A stretch of 22,919 nucleotides of DNA from a virus. Below are positions 843-8,297 of the stretch, in pieces. The stretch's first letter is position 1. The number at the start of each line of letters is the position of its first letter. Below the pieces are notes generated by a model. That model did not search any database. It saw only the letters and a program-made list of their open reading frames with translations, and was not told the origin of the DNA. Both the position numbers and the translations under genes were made by a program. The stretch covers positions 1 to 22,919 of the IMG/VR virus record IMGVR_UViG_3300037847_004410; one strand, written 5' to 3'.

Positions 843-2185
843 GGATTGGCAAACCCTGTGTTTTTACCGAATGAATCTCTGACAAGTGAGAGACTACTGA
901 AAGACTCCTCTGGTGTCACACGGTGACAAACATGTGCTACCATATATATGCCACCACTCTCAGGGTTTGATTCCTTGTTAGATTGACCCTTGAGTTGTGG
1001 GAAGTCACATTGGATTAAGTCACCCGCTTTGATACTTAAGTCAAGTGCAATAGTAATATTAGTCTGTACAGAGAACAACTGATTGTATCTCATCACAGAT
1101 TGAACCATACTTCTCTCAGCATCATAGTTAGACACTGTTGGATTATCTTTCCAGTTCTTCAACTGAGCATCAGATGTAGTCCCTCTAGGAATAGTTCCAA
1201 CATCTAGAACATGACTGAACAATCTTGTAGGTGACTGAGTAAATTCTCTTGCCACCTGATCTGGTGCAAACTTCTTACCTGCAGTTGATAACTTACTCTT
1301 CTGATCCCCAATGTCAAAGTTGACAACCTTGTAATTCATTGAATAGAAGTCAAAGAAAATTGACCTGTTGTTGTAGGTTCCAAGAGACATACTCTCTTTG
1401 GTATCCACATCTCTATCGATACTATAAGATAAAATCTTTCCATCATATCCACCAGATGGAGAATCATTTATATTGTTGTATAAGTAACTCTTAACTGGTG
1501 TCTGTTCAAATATCTTGTCAATTGATTTGAAATTAAATCCATCCCTGGTCTGGTAAAATAAGTATCCTGCCGCACCACCTACACTATTACCTGAACCACT
1601 ACTTGTTCCCAGTGGTACAGACTTAGATGCTAACCAAGTACAAACATACAATGGTTTCCTATCATTACCAATGAAGTTATATTCAATCGCTGTTGAATCA
1701 ACATTGAATGTTTTGGTATCAGTTTTCAGTACATCCTTCAAAATCTTTATTATATTGTCAGATATTTTTCCTTCATACCTTTGTACTACTCTGGACTGTT
1801 CATTCGCAAAGTATTCTTTAGAGCACAGGTCCAACATGTACACATCATTCTGTGTTCCTGGTTGAGCATTTCTTACTCTGTTGACATACATACCATCCTT
1901 CAGAGTTAAGGTATTGCCATAGTTATCTTCGATAGAGATATCAACTCTCTCACCACCTCTAATTGGGAGACCATCAAGGAGACCTTCGGATGCAATGGTA
2001 TCATTACCACTCATTTCATAACCACTCTCAGCCAATACCATTGAACAGGTAGTGACATTAGACAATACACTCTCGTAATATCTAAAGTCGGGAGTGATGA
2101 CAGAAATATCCGCACTAGAACTATTCTGACTTGAAGAGATCAGAAGTTCCTTGATATTAGCTGCTTGTGCTGGTGAATTTGCCAT
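839..2185 (-). CDS. Baseplate hub protein, gp27-like
   Basis: This 448-aa soluble protein has no signal peptide or membrane segment. It begins MANSPAQAANIKELLISSSQ and has mixed beta-rich sequence throughout, with motifs such as ITPDFRYYESVLSNVTTCSM and GGERVDISIEDNYGN that resemble the tail-tube-like domains of hub proteins. T4 gp27 (391 aa) forms the trimeric ring that joins the gp5 spike to the tail tube. This gene sits directly before gp5, sharing ATGA with it, and directly after the GH19-domain gene, sharing TAATG. That position fits a hub ring partner of gp5. I infer the gp27 role from size, fold-like pattern and place; the sequence match to T4 gp27 is not obvious by eye. Another baseplate hub component is the main alternative. 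Confidence 0.6.
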   Translation of the reverse strand: MANSPAQAANIKELLISSSQNSSSADISVITPDFRYYESVLSNVTTCSMVLAESGYEMSGNDTIASEGLLDGLPIRGGERVDISIEDNYGNTLTLKDGMYVNRVRNAQPGTQNDVYMLDLCSKEYFANEQSRVVQRYEGKISDNIIKILKDVLKTDTKTFNVDSTAIEYNFIGNDRKPLYVCTWLASKSVPLGTSSGSGNSVGGAAGYLFYQTRDGFNFKSIDKIFEQTPVKSYLYNNINDSPSGGYDGKILSYSIDRDVDTKESMSLGTYNNRSIFFDFYSMNYKVVNFDIGDQKSKLSTAGKKFAPDQVAREFTQSPTRLFSHVLDVGTIPRGTTSDAQLKNWKDNPTVSNYDAERSMVQSVMRYNQLFSVQTNITIALDLSIKAGDLIQCDFPQLKGQSNKESNPESGGIYMVAHVCHRVTPEESFSSLSLVRDSFGKNTGFANP

Positions 2186-4626
2186 TAACCCTGTTTATAT
2201 AATGAGCCCAATACTTGTGACTTATAGTAACTATTTACCACGTCACCAGAACCCATAATTATTGGAGTTCCCTTACCACCACCAGACATCATAGGTGGTT
2301 CTTGTCCAGGAGTCTGCATCAGGACCACTGTACTTCCAGTTTCTTCATATGAAAGTTGTTGTGATAAACCAGTAATATCACTTGACATTTGTGATTGAGA
2401 TTGAGTTGATGGTGATACCTGAGCTGGTGTAGGTTCATGTCCTGAGATTGGAAGACCAGTGCTAGAATCATAAGTGATGCCACTCACTGTGTATGTTTGT
2501 GGTTTAATTACTGGGTTTCCTTCAGATTTTTCCATCTTGGTGAGTTGACCACTACCAAGTTTCTTCAGATACTTATCATATTTTGCCTGTCTATCTGCCA
2601 TCCCATTAACTTGAGATGGTTTTGTTGCGGCTGGATAATTAATCGCCTTAGAATGTAAGAATACATTATCCCAATCACCTTTTACAGTTGGTCTTACATT
2701 CTTTTGCCAATACAAGATAGCAATCTTCGCCGCGATGTCTCCTCTCATCGCCAAATCTGGATTGTTCAATAGATCTATTCCAAGTTCATCTCCATATTGT
2801 TTATAGTTGTAATCATGAGTAAGTTGAATATAACCTCTTCCATGATATTTTGCAGGAACCACTGTCCCATCAGGTAATGTGTAAGGACCACCACCACCGT
2901 AGTCTGAACGACCACCACTTATCTCTCTATCATAAACAAAGTTACCAGATTCATGTGCCATTTGTGCCATGAATGCTGCCAATTCCTTCCCTTCATATCC
3001 TGCTTCTCTTGCTGCTCTCAATAGTGAAGCCTCACCATATTCTGTGCTTCCTGATGGGGTAGATCCTGTAAATTGTGATTTATATTCCTCATATGTGTCA
3101 GGTAAACCAGTATCCTCTACTCTTGCATTATAATACTCTTGTTCGGTCATCATCCTTTCAGGTTCTGGAGCTTCTGATGTCTCTTTATTTTCGCCAGTCT
3201 CCTGTCGTTTTTTCCACTCGTTATAGGCGGCTTGATACTGTTGCGTTCCCTTTGTACCTTTGGGGAAGTGCGACCTTATCGGTTTCTTATTCTCTTTATT
3301 TCCACCAAGCACTGCAGTAACTATATTACCAATAGTATTATTCCAATCTTCTTTTAGTTTGTTCCCAACTGCATCAACTCCACCACCCATTGTCATAACA
3401 TAGAGTAAGTCACCAACATATTCACCAACAATTTCACCTACCAGTGTTCCAACTACTGGAACAGGAATGAATGAGCCAAGAACACCACCGATTCCTGCAC
3501 CAGCAGTTTTGAATACGGTTTGTCCTATTGGATCTCCAGACAATAAAGAGACAAGAGCCGTAATTAAAGAACCAACAACAGGTATTCTACCAAGAGTACT
3601 CTTAAGTGCCTTAGTGGCTTTAAGAGCATTCTTACCACCAAGTTTAAGAATAAGTCTGTTGGTGGAACGTCCGACACCACCCTTCAGTAATTGACTACCT
3701 TTAGGACCTTTAGGTGTAGGTGCCTTGGTTTTGGGGGGTTTGACTTTAGGTGTAGGTGCCTTGGTTTTGGGGGGTTTGACTTTAGGTGGCTTGGGTACTA
3801 ATTTACCAAGATCTTTAATCCTCCTCAATATTCCTTTTGCAAAATTCTTCAGAGATTTACCAATCCTCCCAAAGGAACTCCCTAATTTCCTACCCATGCC
3901 TCGGAGAAGAGAACCTATACCTTTTCCAAGGTTTTTGATTGGTGAGGCAACTTTACCAATTAACTTAAGTCCTCCCCTAAGTGATTTTCCTAAAAATTTA
4001 AGTCCAGAACTGAGTATCCTACCAGCATTATTGAGCGCTGCAAGAGAAGCTTTCAGAGGAGCAATTATACTACTTCCATTTTCTTGTATCCAATTGAGAA
4101 GATTCCCAAGTCCAATCATGGTGAAAAACTTGAGTGGGTCAAATCCCTCTGTGCCTTTGGCCAGGTCACTAGCCATCCCAACTACCTTACCAGCACCTTT
4201 CTCTAGTAGACTTTCTCTCTGTCTCTTCTTAGCTATCTCAGCAGCTTTACGTTTAGCTTTTCTTTTGTTTTCAACATTCTTCAGTTTTGCTGCTGAGGTT
4301 TTCTTCAGAACATTTGTCAGACCAATAATACTATCAAGTTGATTGTTGATGGTCTCGTAATTAACCTTAGATGGTTTCCCTACTTCATCTGGTTTATCTG
4401 ATATTGTCTCTACTCTATAACTACCAACCATAGGTGTGGTTGGCACAATCGCACCACTCTTACCATCTCCAACCGTTTCTTCAACACCTTTTCCAGATTT
4501 TACTAAAGCACCTTTTTTACCTTTCTTACCCGAAACAAAATTCTTAGCAGCACCTGCAACTGCTTTTTTCCCCGCCCCTGAGGCTAAAGCTTTGATTGCT
4601 GGACCTATAAGTGCTTGTGCTGCCAT
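2185..4626 (-). CDS. Large tail structural protein with GH19-type lysozyme/chitinase domain
   Basis: This 813-aa protein is very basic at the N-terminus. It then has glycine- and leucine-rich amphipathic stretches (about residues 155-270), a Lys/Pro repeat (about 281-304), a hydrophobic glycine-rich block (about 350-420) and a GH19-like hydrolase domain (about 540-700). In that domain MAQMAHESGNF places the likely catalytic Glu near residue 559, followed by HGRGYIQLTHDYNYKQYG, the usual GH19/endolysin signature. The C-terminus is Ser/Gln-rich and ends in SQVLGSLYKQG. The domain should cut glycan strands of peptidoglycan during infection. The hydrophobic, glycine-rich body and its position after the gp26/gp51 pair make it a candidate tape-measure or hub-lysozyme protein. 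It overlaps both neighbours by one base (TAATG). The enzyme domain is clear; the structural role is inferred. Confidence 0.75.
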   Translation of the reverse strand: MAAQALIGPAIKALASGAGKKAVAGAAKNFVSGKKGKKGALVKSGKGVEETVGDGKSGAIVPTTPMVGSYRVETISDKPDEVGKPSKVNYETINNQLDSIIGLTNVLKKTSAAKLKNVENKRKAKRKAAEIAKKRQRESLLEKGAGKVVGMASDLAKGTEGFDPLKFFTMIGLGNLLNWIQENGSSIIAPLKASLAALNNAGRILSSGLKFLGKSLRGGLKLIGKVASPIKNLGKGIGSLLRGMGRKLGSSFGRIGKSLKNFAKGILRRIKDLGKLVPKPPKVKPPKTKAPTPKVKPPKTKAPTPKGPKGSQLLKGGVGRSTNRLILKLGGKNALKATKALKSTLGRIPVVGSLITALVSLLSGDPIGQTVFKTAGAGIGGVLGSFIPVPVVGTLVGEIVGEYVGDLLYVMTMGGGVDAVGNKLKEDWNNTIGNIVTAVLGGNKENKKPIRSHFPKGTKGTQQYQAAYNEWKKRQETGENKETSEAPEPERMMTEQEYYNARVEDTGLPDTYEEYKSQFTGSTPSGSTEYGEASLLRAAREAGYEGKELAAFMAQMAHESGNFVYDREISGGRSDYGGGGPYTLPDGTVVPAKYHGRGYIQLTHDYNYKQYGDELGIDLLNNPDLAMRGDIAAKIAILYWQKNVRPTVKGDWDNVFLHSKAINYPAATKPSQVNGMADRQAKYDKYLKKLGSGQLTKMEKSEGNPVIKPQTYTVSGITYDSSTGLPISGHEPTPAQVSPSTQSQSQMSSDITGLSQQLSYEETGSTVVLMQTPGQEPPMMSGGGKGTPIIMGSGDVVNSYYKSQVLGSLYKQG
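3713..3784 (-). repeat. 36-bp tandem repeat, two copies, inside the GH19 tail gene
   Basis: Two identical 36-bp units (3713-3748 and 3749-3784) lie head to tail. A shorter, diverged third start follows. They are in frame and encode the 12-residue unit KVKPPKTKAPTP twice, a lysine/proline linker. Perfect identity at DNA level, not only protein level, points to a recent slippage duplication. Confidence 0.9.
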
Positions 4627-6680
4627 TATCCTACAATGTTATAGATGGATTTGATAACAATAAACTCAGTGTTACCCAAGTCCCTTGAAGAGAACGATGG
4701 AACATCCTTTTGACCAGCCGACACTGTACTAGTTGGTGGTTTTTGAGTAGGTGCGGGAATAGGTAAGACAGGTGCCTGTTTACTCTTTTGGGGTGGTGGT
4801 GAAATAGTTGGTGTTGATTTTGATGATGGTTTCACCGTAGCAATACGTCTTCCTCTTCTGTTGGTTTTAAATGCAGGAGCTCCTTCTTCTGGTGAAGATT
4901 TCACCTCACCCGCATCAGTTCCACTTCCAGGTTTAATTGTCCCATCGAAAACTCTAAGGGGGTTGACTACCTTTCCATCTTTATATGTTTGAAGATGTAA
5001 ATGTGTTTGAGCATAATTATTGGATGCCGTACCTAGAGGAATTAATTTTCCAATTCTCTCACCCCTCTTTACGGTAGTCCCCACTTTCTTATCTGGTGTC
5101 ATATGTAGATATGTCGCCATCAATCCATTGCCATGATTGACGGTTAAATTTGATGTGTATCCAGAAGTTTGATATGGGTAGTGTGGACTACTTGCTGCAA
5201 CCTTACCGTCTGCCATAGAAACAACAGGAACTTTAGGATCGGCACCATATGGTGGATCCTCTGTTATATCAATACCAGCATGTCCACCATAACTTCTTGG
5301 ATCACCATATTTTTGACCAGATTGTCCTTTGTAAGATCCTGATGGAACTGGTTGAACAACCCCTCCACCTGAGAATCCTTGAATAACACCCTCGGTTGGG
5401 ATATTAGTTCCACCAGCTGATTTATTCATAGCCAGAAGGTTGTTAAGACCATAGGCATCAACTGCCTTCTTACTCATCACAACCTCACCTGGTTGAGCTG
5501 CAATCAGTTGAGTATCAGGTCCCATACCTTTGATGGTTTCACCAGTATTGATGTTGATGACTCCACCACCAGACATACCTTCTACTTGTGTTTCTTCTTT
5601 CTCTCTTTCAGCTTTCGGTTTGAACTTTTCTATGGGTTCAAACTGGAATACTTCTGCCTTTGGAATTCTGGGGATTGTAAACTTGTCTTCCTCATCAACT
5701 CCCTCTTCACCAGCGAACATACCGAAGATACCATTGATTGCATTCTCAAGATTTGTTATACCACCATTCAAAGGTTCAACCATCTTATTGAGATTTTCAA
5801 CAATTCCACCAAACAAAAATTCAAGAATACCATTAACCACATTGATCACACCATTTACCATATCAATCAATGGATTGAGCGCCAACAATGGGTCATCAAG
5901 GATCTCAATGAGCCCCTTAAGAGCATTACCCAAGAAAATATTCTTAAAGAAATCTATGATCGTATCAAACATACTCTTTAAGGGTTTGGTGACTTTATCA
6001 GTTACCGTCTTTTTAAACCCTTTGGCACTCTTTTCTAGACCACTTTCCTTATCTCTTTTCTTTTTCTTCTCTCCAGCGACTCTATCAGCATCCGACTCTT
6101 TCTTTTGAATTTCAAGTTCCTCAGCAGATATATCCAACATATCACTAAGATTACTCTCAATCTTAGTCAACTTGTCTGAAATATCACCTAGAAAACTCTT
6201 TATTCCACCCACTGCGGGATCCTGTCCAACCTCAACATCAGGTTCTGTAGTTCCTGGAAGAGCAAGTAAAGATGATTGAGGTCTTGCTCTTTCTGATGTT
6301 TTTACATTAGCAACAAAAGAATCAAATTTAATCTTCTCTTTCTTTACTTTGAATCTACCTGTATTTCCCTTTACTCTCTTAAACTCTTCAGTTAATATTT
6401 CAGTTTCTTCGGTTGGCATCTTACTGTCTGCCATCCTACCTTCTATCATCCTCTCCCTGAGAAGAGTCTTGTAGGTTGCATAGTCAATATCAATAGCATC
6501 TTCCAAACCCAAAAGGGTTAGGATTCTTTCATCAATTTGTTCAGAGACCAGATCTTCTTCTCTCTCATCTGGTACATAAACAGCCAATGCACCCGATTTG
6601 TTCCCTCCAGATTTTCCCCTAATGGAGTCAAGCAGGTCATCAAGCCCTGGGATATTTTGATCATCGGATGGATTTATCAT
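4626..6680 (-). CDS. Large tail structural protein with M23 metallopeptidase domain
   Basis: This 684-aa protein has a charged, coiled-coil-like N-terminal third (for example EELEIQKKESDADR), then amphipathic helices about residues 235-330. A Gly-rich region around 385-450 holds two SGGGV motifs and PGEVVMSKKAV, a pattern I associate with tail tape-measure proteins. Residues about 450-585 are an M23/LytM endopeptidase domain: HAGID gives zinc ligands His467 and Asp471, and HLHL gives His560 and His562. The last 90 residues are Pro/Thr-rich. M23 enzymes cut peptide cross-links in peptidoglycan, so the domain likely helps the tail cross the wall. It starts inside the stop of the small gp51-like ORF (ATGA) and ends in a TAATG overlap with the GH19 gene. 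It is the first large gene after the chaperone-like pair, which is the place of the tape measure in many phages; that role is inferred. Confidence 0.75.
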   Translation of the reverse strand: MINPSDDQNIPGLDDLLDSIRGKSGGNKSGALAVYVPDEREEDLVSEQIDERILTLLGLEDAIDIDYATYKTLLRERMIEGRMADSKMPTEETEILTEEFKRVKGNTGRFKVKKEKIKFDSFVANVKTSERARPQSSLLALPGTTEPDVEVGQDPAVGGIKSFLGDISDKLTKIESNLSDMLDISAEELEIQKKESDADRVAGEKKKKRDKESGLEKSAKGFKKTVTDKVTKPLKSMFDTIIDFFKNIFLGNALKGLIEILDDPLLALNPLIDMVNGVINVVNGILEFLFGGIVENLNKMVEPLNGGITNLENAINGIFGMFAGEEGVDEEDKFTIPRIPKAEVFQFEPIEKFKPKAEREKEETQVEGMSGGGVININTGETIKGMGPDTQLIAAQPGEVVMSKKAVDAYGLNNLLAMNKSAGGTNIPTEGVIQGFSGGGVVQPVPSGSYKGQSGQKYGDPRSYGGHAGIDITEDPPYGADPKVPVVSMADGKVAASSPHYPYQTSGYTSNLTVNHGNGLMATYLHMTPDKKVGTTVKRGERIGKLIPLGTASNNYAQTHLHLQTYKDGKVVNPLRVFDGTIKPGSGTDAGEVKSSPEEGAPAFKTNRRGRRIATVKPSSKSTPTISPPPQKSKQAPVLPIPAPTQKPPTSTVSAGQKDVPSFSSRDLGNTEFIVIKSIYNIVG

Positions 6681-6850
6681 TGGTTAGCTTTTGCCTTTTC
6701 CTCTTCTTCTTTAATGTGGTTCTGAAGAAGTGATACATAAACATCACGCTCCCAAGGCATCATGTTTTCAATCTCAGTCAATGAATATTTATGGTACTGC
6801 ATCAAAGCAAAGTTTAATCTAAAGTATGACTCAAGATTCATGTGAGCCAT
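6677..6850 (-). CDS. Small gp51-like ORF, probable frameshift extension of gp26
   Basis: This 57-aa ORF (start MAHMNLESYFRLNFALMQYH, then YSLTEIENMMPWERDVYVSLL, end EEEEKAKANQ) is helical and charged. Small proteins of this kind with an IENMMPWER-type core follow gp26 in T4-like phages and resemble the T part of lambda-type tail chaperones. T4 gp51 is a baseplate hub assembly catalyst that is absent from the finished particle. It could start alone at the ATG at 6850, but its frame is exactly the -1 frame of the gp26 gene, and a slippery site with a downstream stem lies just before it. It may therefore be made mainly as a gp26 fusion. Its stop overlaps the start of the M23 gene (ATGA). Confidence 0.75.
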   Translation of the reverse strand: MAHMNLESYFRLNFALMQYHKYSLTEIENMMPWERDVYVSLLQNHIKEEEEKAKANQ

Positions 6851-6865
6851 ACCTACGCGAAAAAA
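6825..6865 (-). promoter_or_regulatory. Programmed -1 ribosomal frameshift signal (gp26 to small ORF)
   Basis: On the minus strand the gp26 frame reads AGT TTT TTC GCG TAG. This places the canonical slippery heptamer T TTT TTC (6865-6859) in the correct frame two codons before the stop. After a 7-nt spacer, 6851-6825 form a 9-bp stem (TATGGCTCA with TGAGTCATA, one G-U pair) with a 9-nt loop. A -1 slip at TTC continues as CGC GTA GGT ATG GCT, straight into the 57-aa ORF, giving a fusion of about 297 aa. All three parts and the spacing match known -1 signals. Function is inferred. Confidence 0.75.
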
Positions 6866-7569
6866 CTAGACAACCCCTCAAGAACAACTTCACTCTCTAC
6901 CTTAGTCTTAGGATTTGTGACCTTCAATGTATGAGACAACTTAGGCATCGTCTCAAAGAACTTCTCAATATCTTTGAACTGAATGGAGTTCATTTGTTCA
7001 AGGAATTCCAAAACCTCTTTCTTACTGACATCATCAGTAGACCAAACCTCTTCTTCATTGAAAATCTTATCAACACAACTAGCAATCAATTCAAATGACT
7101 GGTCAAAGTTTGAATCATTGATGTCAAAGTTGTTCTTAATAAACTGATCCAATGATGGATACCTCATCTCCATCATCAACTCATCATTGAGTTTGATTTG
7201 TTTGTTATGTTCTGGATTTTCACTAACCTTGATATCATCAATGTCAATGGTTACAGGAATTTGTGTCACACCATCATCGGGTGCAACAATATTAACTTCA
7301 ACCTCTTCACCAACAGACTTACCACGAATATTAAGGAAGAGATATTCAATATCAAATGTAGGAAGTTGTTCTACTTTAATACCTCTAGTCTGAATACAAT
7401 TCTTGATGACAGACTTAACAGCATTTGTAATCTCTTTCTGATCTTCAGTTTCAAGTGCAAGAACCAAGAGTTTCTCTTCCTTCACCAGGAAGGGTCTATA
7501 CTTGATTGTCTTTTTTGTCGAAGGCAATTCCAACGAATACGTTGGGGTGGCAATTGTTGGTAAAGGCAT
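6853..7569 (-). CDS. gp26: gp26-like baseplate hub assembly protein (T4_baseplate family)
   Basis: This 238-aa protein (start MPLPTIATPTYSLELPSTKK, then KYRPFLVKEEKLLVLALETE) matches the pattern of the T4 base plate protein family (gp26). It has a short beta-rich N-terminus, a KEEK..L.LA segment, and a helical, acidic C-terminal half. T4 gp26 helps assemble the baseplate hub. It is followed by a tiny overlapping gp51-like ORF and two very large tail genes, the order of tail chaperone pair then tape measure in lambda-like tails. The last codons carry a slippery heptamer, so the ribosome may make both the 238-aa form and a longer fusion. A late-promoter-like AATAAATA lies about 30 bases upstream of the start, overlapping the stop of the gene before it. 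Confidence 0.8.
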   Translation of the reverse strand: MPLPTIATPTYSLELPSTKKTIKYRPFLVKEEKLLVLALETEDQKEITNAVKSVIKNCIQTRGIKVEQLPTFDIEYLFLNIRGKSVGEEVEVNIVAPDDGVTQIPVTIDIDDIKVSENPEHNKQIKLNDELMMEMRYPSLDQFIKNNFDINDSNFDQSFELIASCVDKIFNEEEVWSTDDVSKKEVLEFLEQMNSIQFKDIEKFFETMPKLSHTLKVTNPKTKVESEVVLEGLSSFFA

Positions 7570-7598: not shown

Positions 7599-7606
7599 TA
7601 TTTATT
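7599..7606 (-). promoter_or_regulatory. T4-type late promoter motif upstream of gp26
   Basis: The minus strand reads AATAAATA here, one base from the T4 late consensus TATAAATA and a full match to the looser NATAAATA form proposed for cyanophages. It lies about 30 bases before the gp26 start and touches the stop of the gp54-like gene. It would start a transcript covering the hub genes. An 8-base A+T-rich motif can occur by chance. Confidence 0.4.
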
Positions 7607-8297
7607 AGGAAGCGTTGGGTCCTTTTGGATTAAAGAACTCACCATAATTCTTGAGAAGTCCCTGTTTAGATCTAAATCTAACGTATCTAGTGTATGCAAA
7701 TGACACACTCATCTTCAATACATCACTTTGATCATACGAAACTGGTATTGAGATGACATTAAGTGGGAATGCATCTACAAATTCATATGTCAATTGAGCA
7801 TCTGTAAGGTTCTTCTCAAACTTTGTGACATGAATTGGAGTTCTGTATGTCGAGGGGTAATTCATTCTATATGTGGCTGCACTACTCCTGTACATTTCTC
7901 TAGTGTCCCCACTATTGGGGTTATCAATATTCATACCACTCATATAATCAACCCAACCCTCAAAGAATTCGATGACATCATATGCCTTATCAACATAGAA
8001 AGTCATGTCAATCGTAGAGTCAAACATTCTACGATAGACCATTCTTTCAGTGACACCAGCATAATTGTTGGTGGCTTCAGTGGTAGAGAATGAAGTTCCA
8101 GGAAGAGCAGTTTCGTGACAAAGAAGTTCTATGTTCTGACCCCTTTGACTATAATCAAGTTTCCTCTCTGTTTTCAAAAAATTGAGAACATTTGGTGGTG
8201 GTTGAATTTTTACTTGATATACAGAAGTCTGAGCAAGATTCATTATCTTACTCTTTAGAGCTCCTGTCTTAAAAGCATTTGGCGATGCCCCAGCCAT
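7605..8297 (-). CDS. Tail-tube-family baseplate protein, gp54-like
   Basis: This 230-aa protein has no signal or membrane segment. It has the features of the gp19/gp54 tail-tube superfamily: an N-terminal NFLKTERKLDYSQRGQNIEL segment, a central LPGTSFSTTE loop, then beta-rich sequence ending in LKMSVSFAYTRYVRF. T4 gp54 (320 aa) starts tail-tube polymerisation on the baseplate; gp19 (163 aa) is the tube itself. The size lies between the two, and the position beside gp26 and hub genes favours a baseplate tube-initiator role. The gene starts 40 bases from the divergent gp4 start, and I see no clear promoter of its own in that gap. The tail-tube fold is likely; the exact T4 equivalent is uncertain. 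Confidence 0.6.
   Translation of the reverse strand: MAGASPNAFKTGALKSKIMNLAQTSVYQVKIQPPPNVLNFLKTERKLDYSQRGQNIELLCHETALPGTSFSTTEATNNYAGVTERMVYRRMFDSTIDMTFYVDKAYDVIEFFEGWVDYMSGMNIDNPNSGDTREMYRSSAATYRMNYPSTYRTPIHVTKFEKNLTDAQLTYEFVDAFPLNVISIPVSYDQSDVLKMSVSFAYTRYVRFRSKQGLLKNYGEFFNPKGPNAS

Follow-up and report, generated by a model that had tools for sequence, protein, structure and literature searches.

A 22,919-nucleotide (nt) stretch of DNA (hereafter the window), part of a 24,351-base uncultured virus record (IMG/VR record IMGVR_UViG_3300037847_004410), belongs to a marine T4-like phage and encodes on its minus strand a homolog of T4 gp26, followed closely by a 57-amino acid (aa) open reading frame (ORF) with similarity to T4 gp51. 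This arrangement raises the question of whether gp26 and the small ORF are two genes or one gene read in two frames. Judged from sequence conservation, from T4 gp51 as a natural fusion of both parts and from a suggested HK97 chaperone-like fold, gp26 and the downstream −1 frame very probably constitute a tail assembly chaperone (TAC) gene with programmed −1 ribosomal frameshifting, of the G/GT type known from phage lambda, with a short (TAC-N) and a long (TAC-NC) product. Most long-tailed phages rely on such a pair of chaperones in tail construction. The original prediction, made from the letters of the window, had proposed such a pair, and the analysis supports it. The elements of the junction are:

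6853..7569, minus strand: gp26, TAC-N (short tail assembly chaperone), 238 aa (PF12322 E=6.4e-76; phrog_150 E=4.2e-80)
6859..6865, minus strand: T TTT TTC, the slippery heptamer (U UUU UUC as mRNA), identified by sequence and conserved in relatives
6853..6855, minus strand: TAG, at which gp26 stops in the 0 frame; read in the −1 frame it belongs to GTA G..
6824..6852, minus strand: 3′ stem-loop GTATGGCTCA-N9-TGAGTCATAC, probable stimulator, 6–7 nt past the heptamer (energy, covariation)
6680..6859, minus strand: −1 frame extension of 60 codons, TAC-C (phrog_634 E=2.5e-28), with stop TGA at 6679..6677
6850..6677, minus strand: 57-aa ‘gp51’ ORF, inside the −1 frame extension
6677..7569, minus strand: gp26-51 (TAC-NC), the 297-aa product predicted from a −1 shift and the counterpart of T4 gp51

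A Slippery Heptamer at the End of gp26

The 3′ end of gp26 reads TTG TCT AGT TTT TTC GCG TAG. In this sequence, T TTT TTC stands in the 0 frame in the phase required for two tRNA-Phe to slip back by one base, and a single sense codon (GCG) separates it from the stop; its originally described position, two codons before the stop, is correct if the stop itself is counted. The −1 frame, TTT TTT CGC GTA GGT ATG GCT CAC ATG ..., leads exactly into the 57-aa ORF, as had been claimed. The predicted product sizes of 238 and about 297 aa also held, the fusion after a −1 shift being computed at 297 aa, with the junction peptides ...GLSSFFR and VGMAHMNLESYFR. gp26 scored 255.3 bits against PF12322 (curated cut-off 24.5) and is thereby a member of the T4 gp26-gp51 family.

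Conservation of the Heptamer Among Relatives

A first scan recovered 80 viral contigs whose gp26 is 68–83% identical to that of the window. In 80/80 of them T TTT TTC stands two codons from the ORF end, counting the stop, and a −1 shift enters the frame of 51. Both Phe codons, together with the final T of the preceding Ser or Gly codon, were fixed at all 79 loci that could be parsed. With a conserved Phe-Phe end in the gp26 family and a preference for TTT (0.73) among the Phe codons, one might ascribe the heptamer and its frame relation to chance or to codon usage at this end. That explanation is hardly credible: TTT/TTC usage elsewhere in the genes predicts TTT TTC at about 20% of loci against the 79/79 observed, the preceding codon is just as invariably T-ending, and T TTT TTY occurs at just 5 of 172 other Phe-Phe pairs. 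This invariance refutes it, and the heptamer at the gp26 end is not a product of chance.

Distant relatives were added to the first scan, for which a five-sequence alignment was usable and an 18-sequence one too diverse; with gp26 of Vibrio phage 1.255.O as query, no relative was found in the viral contigs. T TTT TT(C/T/A) was present at the gp26 end in 182 loci that keep the arrangement (some contigs entered twice), representing 163 distinct long junctions, and the −1 extension reached at least 35 codons in 179 of the 182. As a control, the remaining codon positions of 166 gp26 genes, 39,525 in all, were searched for in-frame T6N, which occurred at 21 of them. The heptamer was missing from the T4 group, which has two separate genes, from two Ackermannviridae-like Vibrio phages, and from loci L095 and L105, where an apparent indel disrupts the reading frame of gp26. 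Comparison of the junction across relatives, the check proposed with the original prediction, found the heptamer, the −1 relation and a hairpin kept while nearby bases vary.

A Hairpin Downstream of the Slip Site

In the window, positions 6852–6843 pair with 6833–6824 (GTATGGCTCA/TGAGTCATAC), giving 10 pairs including one G.U, with a 6-nt spacer; the 9-bp stem and 7-nt spacer originally described match the inner nine pairs of this stem. RNAfold predicted 12 pairs and −14.9 kcal/mol for the window, and relative to a null of random synonymous codons for the −1 frame this hairpin had a z of −3.65. Over the 163 junctions, the 42-nt windows just past the slip had a mean z of −1.84, compared with −0.28 and −0.19 in control windows further on. 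Relatives were grouped by peptide and not by pairing: group A had a paired fraction of 0.92 against a null of 0.52 (standard deviation 0.033), and group B, with a different and shorter stem, 0.893 against 0.753 (standard deviation 0.016). Covariation was evident as 11 double-change cells compared with 3.6 in shuffles, with 0/500 shuffles reaching the observed value; alignment A3 was chosen partly for pairing, which biases its counts in that direction, and the peptide-defined groups are the fairer test. At one stem pair U-A is replaced by G-C, a silent Ala change being matched by a Glu-to-Ala change.

A single universal hairpin was considered and rejected, as stem registers vary by lineage. L176, L184, L188, L152, L084 and L088 showed no hairpin beyond the synonymous-codon expectation, though the heptamer is kept. 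Since some lineages are without an evident stem, the hairpin is probably a stimulator and not indispensable; in those lineages the stimulator may differ or be absent. As a separate observation, the hairpin of the window has the group A register (GTATGGCTCA/TGAGTCATAC), while in gp26 and the −1 extension its nearest relatives are group B phages (GGTCCATATGGACC type), a combination that points to either convergence or a register switch.

A Non-canonical Site in Ackermannviridae

The 51 part also lies in the −1 frame in Ackermannviridae, where the site GAR ATT TTC ATY TAA was found in 18/18 contigs, 15 of which have no start codon in the first twelve codons. The [AG] ATT TTC site was present in Kuttervirus, Limestonevirus and Taipeivirus-like phages, and related phages carry A-CTT-TTC, A-CTT-TTT, G-CTT-TTT or G-GTT-TTC in its place. 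These non-canonical sites at the gp26 end comprise loci L199, L200, L201, L203, L208 and L209–L226 (Ackermannviridae and VPALA). In four records the 51 extension is unannotated. At sites of this type, clean re-pairing is open to the A-site Phe codon only.

The length of the T run bears on a further explanation, in which six T's make transcription slip, or give rise to mRNA with frame-changing indels, and lead to the same fused product. Runs of T serve this purpose in some bacteria, and six T's are a possible slippage site for RNA polymerase. We consider it very unlikely that this, and not a ribosomal slip, operates here. Six or seven T's make up the run, no longer one occurring among the listed junctions, and its codon phase (TTT TTC/TTT TTT) is that of a tRNA-slip heptamer. 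The covarying RNA hairpin stands at the right distance for ribosomal pausing, and the Ackermannviridae variant has just four T's.

One Protein or Two

In another explanation, gp26 and the 57-aa ORF are made as two proteins, the latter started at the ATG at 6850 by termination-reinitiation or independent initiation. This ATG lies 2 nt past the gp26 stop in the window, gp51 coding sequences are annotated separately in public records, and a TGATG overlap is present in Cr30, YB07 and EniLVp02. Several lines of evidence nonetheless make separate proteins improbable. At 36 of the 163 distinct junctions there is no ATG, GTG or TTG in the first nine −1 codons. A Shine-Dalgarno-like motif precedes the 51 ATG in just 8/169 cases, compared with 97/169 for gp26, although cyanobacteria depend less on such motifs and these counts are supporting evidence only. 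Between the slip and the ATG, the −1 frame encodes conserved hydrophobic residues (FFR-[ILV]-x-[LM]), and the heptamer does not vary even at wobble positions, where the gp26 protein would leave it free to do so. In T4, gp51 contains both parts in one chain. Where early start codons are missing, annotation has left only stubs: gp51 is given as 45 aa in HTVC008M (L081:3753-3890) and 31 aa in P-SSM7 (L205:2301-2396), because the frameshift went unrecognized.

Relationship to T4 Genes 26 and 51

T4 gp26 and gp51 are paralogs, as both belong to PF12322. Their genes are divergently transcribed neighbors (L092:7803-9229) without a slippery site. A profile of in silico fusions aligned with T4-group gp51 straight across the junction (probability 98.8), and the extension alone matched T4-group gp51 from residue 201 to the C-terminus (probability 95.0); T4 gp26 has no counterpart of this extra C-terminal part. 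In the 297-aa fusion of the window, phrog_150 covered residues 1–287 and phrog_634 residues 190–297, spanning the junction. The label ‘gp51-like’ that the original prediction gave to the 57-aa ORF therefore stands in part: the ORF matches the C-terminal domain of gp51 (residue 201 to the end), but it is not a full-length gp51 (249 aa), whose real counterpart is the fusion, with gp26 as the N-terminal part. Cyanophage gp51 was once described as lacking the first 200 residues and having a fifth of the length (Sullivan et al., 2010, PMC3037559); it would look shortened because the remainder is gp26, joined via the frameshift.

T4 genes 26 and 51 thus resemble the locus in the window in PF12322 membership and in the match of gp51 to the fusion, and differ from it in being two divergent genes with no slippery site. 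This comparison suggests that T4 gp26 and gp51 are the short and long forms placed in separate genes, and that cyanophages use one gene for both. A broader proposal, to which we give an even chance, is that the T4-like superfamily has one conserved recoding site with lineage-specific stimulators (T6 with covarying hairpins in two or more registers in cyanophages and their relatives, no evident hairpin elsewhere, and the non-canonical N-NTT-TTY of Ackermannviridae), the T4 pair being a secondary split.

Structural Model of gp26

The AlphaFold model of gp26 had a pLDDT (model confidence score) of 89.6. Its best alignment in the PDB was to the HK97 tail assembly chaperone 2ob9 (84 residues, root-mean-square deviation 4.1) at Z 7.9, a value that models lacking a clear match commonly reach, followed by YqbN (3klu, Z 7.3) and a protein of a PICI-like element (5ir0, Z 5.4); the first apparently unrelated chain scored Z 4.0. 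These alignments span residues 1–93 only. Compared with the lambda system, gp26 is larger, with only its first ~86 residues resembling HK97 gp13. The model suggests that gp26 has an HK97-chaperone-like fold. No relative turned up when solved structures were searched by sequence, and a Foldseek search of the PDB with the model of T4-group gp51 gave nothing significant, an absence that proves nothing. A pair of the lambda G/GT type would have both proteins produced, the long one in the minority, with neither present in the virion; in the LIMEstone1 record, gp26 is noted as a confirmed structural protein.

Neighboring Genes

The minus-strand order in the window is tail tube, gp26, the 57-aa ORF, a 684-aa protein and an 813-aa protein:

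7605..8297, minus strand: tail tube protein, 230 aa, directly upstream of gp26 (Phage_TTP_2 E=8.8e-13; phrog_45 E=7.2e-36)
4626..6680, minus strand: probable tape-measure protein, 684 aa, with an M23 peptidase domain, adjoining the TAC genes (weak tape-measure PHROG matches, best E=1.1e-5)
2185..4626, minus strand: 813-aa protein with a GH19 domain

The order tail tube, G, T, tape measure is present, the tape-measure identity here coming from weak PHROG matches only; in the HTVC008M and Cr30 records an annotated tape-measure gene lies just downstream, with one extra small ORF between. The 684-aa gene starts at an ATG that shares bases with the −1 frame stop (ATGA, window 6677–6680), and translation of this tape-measure-like gene may be coupled to ribosomes that have shifted frame. 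Both large tail proteins contain cell-wall enzyme domains, GH19 in the one at 2185–4626 (E=1.5e-12) and Peptidase_M23 in the one at 4626–6680 (E=9.7e-15).

Proposed Mechanism and Contrary Evidence

In the proposed mechanism, the majority of ribosomes would end at TAG and produce the 238-aa short form (TAC-N). A minority would pause at the hairpin with tRNA-Phe in the P and A sites, and these tRNAs would re-pair from TTT TTC to TTT TTT and go on into the 51 frame, giving the 297-aa TAC-NC. If the pair works as lambda G/GT does, the tape-measure protein, which the next gene encodes, would be coated by short forms in many copies, and the few long forms would recruit tail-tube subunits, the product of the preceding gene, through their C-terminal 51 domain. 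Such are the frameshift event, its efficiency and the protein contacts as we infer them.

A number of observations weigh against this mechanism. Several lineages, e.g., L176, L184 and L188, retain the heptamer with a weak hairpin or none. In many loci, that of the window among them, an in-frame ATG follows shortly after the gp26 stop, and some distant phages have TGATG or TAATG overlaps, either of which would allow reinitiation. A Foldseek search of the PDB with the gp26 model gave nothing significant, its best Z score is unexceptional as noted above, and VIA-align listed no chaperone for the T4-group gp51 model, though absence from that list proves nothing. Peptide or ribosome-profiling proof of the fused product was searched for in the literature and none was found.

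Comparison with Known Systems

Vladimirov, Gautam and Davidson (Virology 2022, 566:9-15) reportedly found frameshifting conserved in several T4-like groups, with T4 using genes 26 and 51. The lambda heptamer, GGGAAAG, differs from the T TTT TTC of the window. In the lambda G/GT frameshift a short product is accompanied by a rarer long one (Xu, Hendrix and Duda, 2004; reviewed in PMC5009743), as is predicted here, and the same 2016 review (PMC5009743) still placed T4 outside the frameshift rule. According to the summary by the authors of PRFect (PMC10885494), some T4-like phages have one short and one long gene in place of frameshifting (Vladimirov et al., 2022), and a 2025 paper (PMC12846349) credits the same study with the polyT slippery sites in T4-like TAC-N genes. 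The original prediction knew of no such pair established for T4-like phages; to judge from these two citing papers, that was mistaken, as the T4-like TAC genes had been identified in 2022. As described there, they are the same genes as in the window, with gp26 as the short chaperone; the T4 long form is a separate gene 51. The window comes from an uncultured phage. Frameshifted TAC genes are also found in Vandenendeviridae/Andersonviridae (phage Adele, PMC12846349), which are other families and have a GTTTTT motif in place of the tandem-Phe T TTT TTC.

A frameshifted chaperone pair in T4-like phages was thus already known, having been proposed in 2022, and our data lend it strong support. The present finding is a confirmation with added detail, since the literature already contains both the principle and its occurrence in T4-like phages. 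What is added is breadth, and the hairpin covariation, the absent start codons and the non-canonical N-NTT-TTY site in Ackermannviridae, which may go beyond Vladimirov et al. (2022). For annotation, it means that gp26 and gp51 should be merged into one entry in hundreds of marine phages. For tail biology, the junction offers a defined site at which to test how tail assembly is set by the short-to-long chaperone ratio in phages of abundant ocean bacteria.
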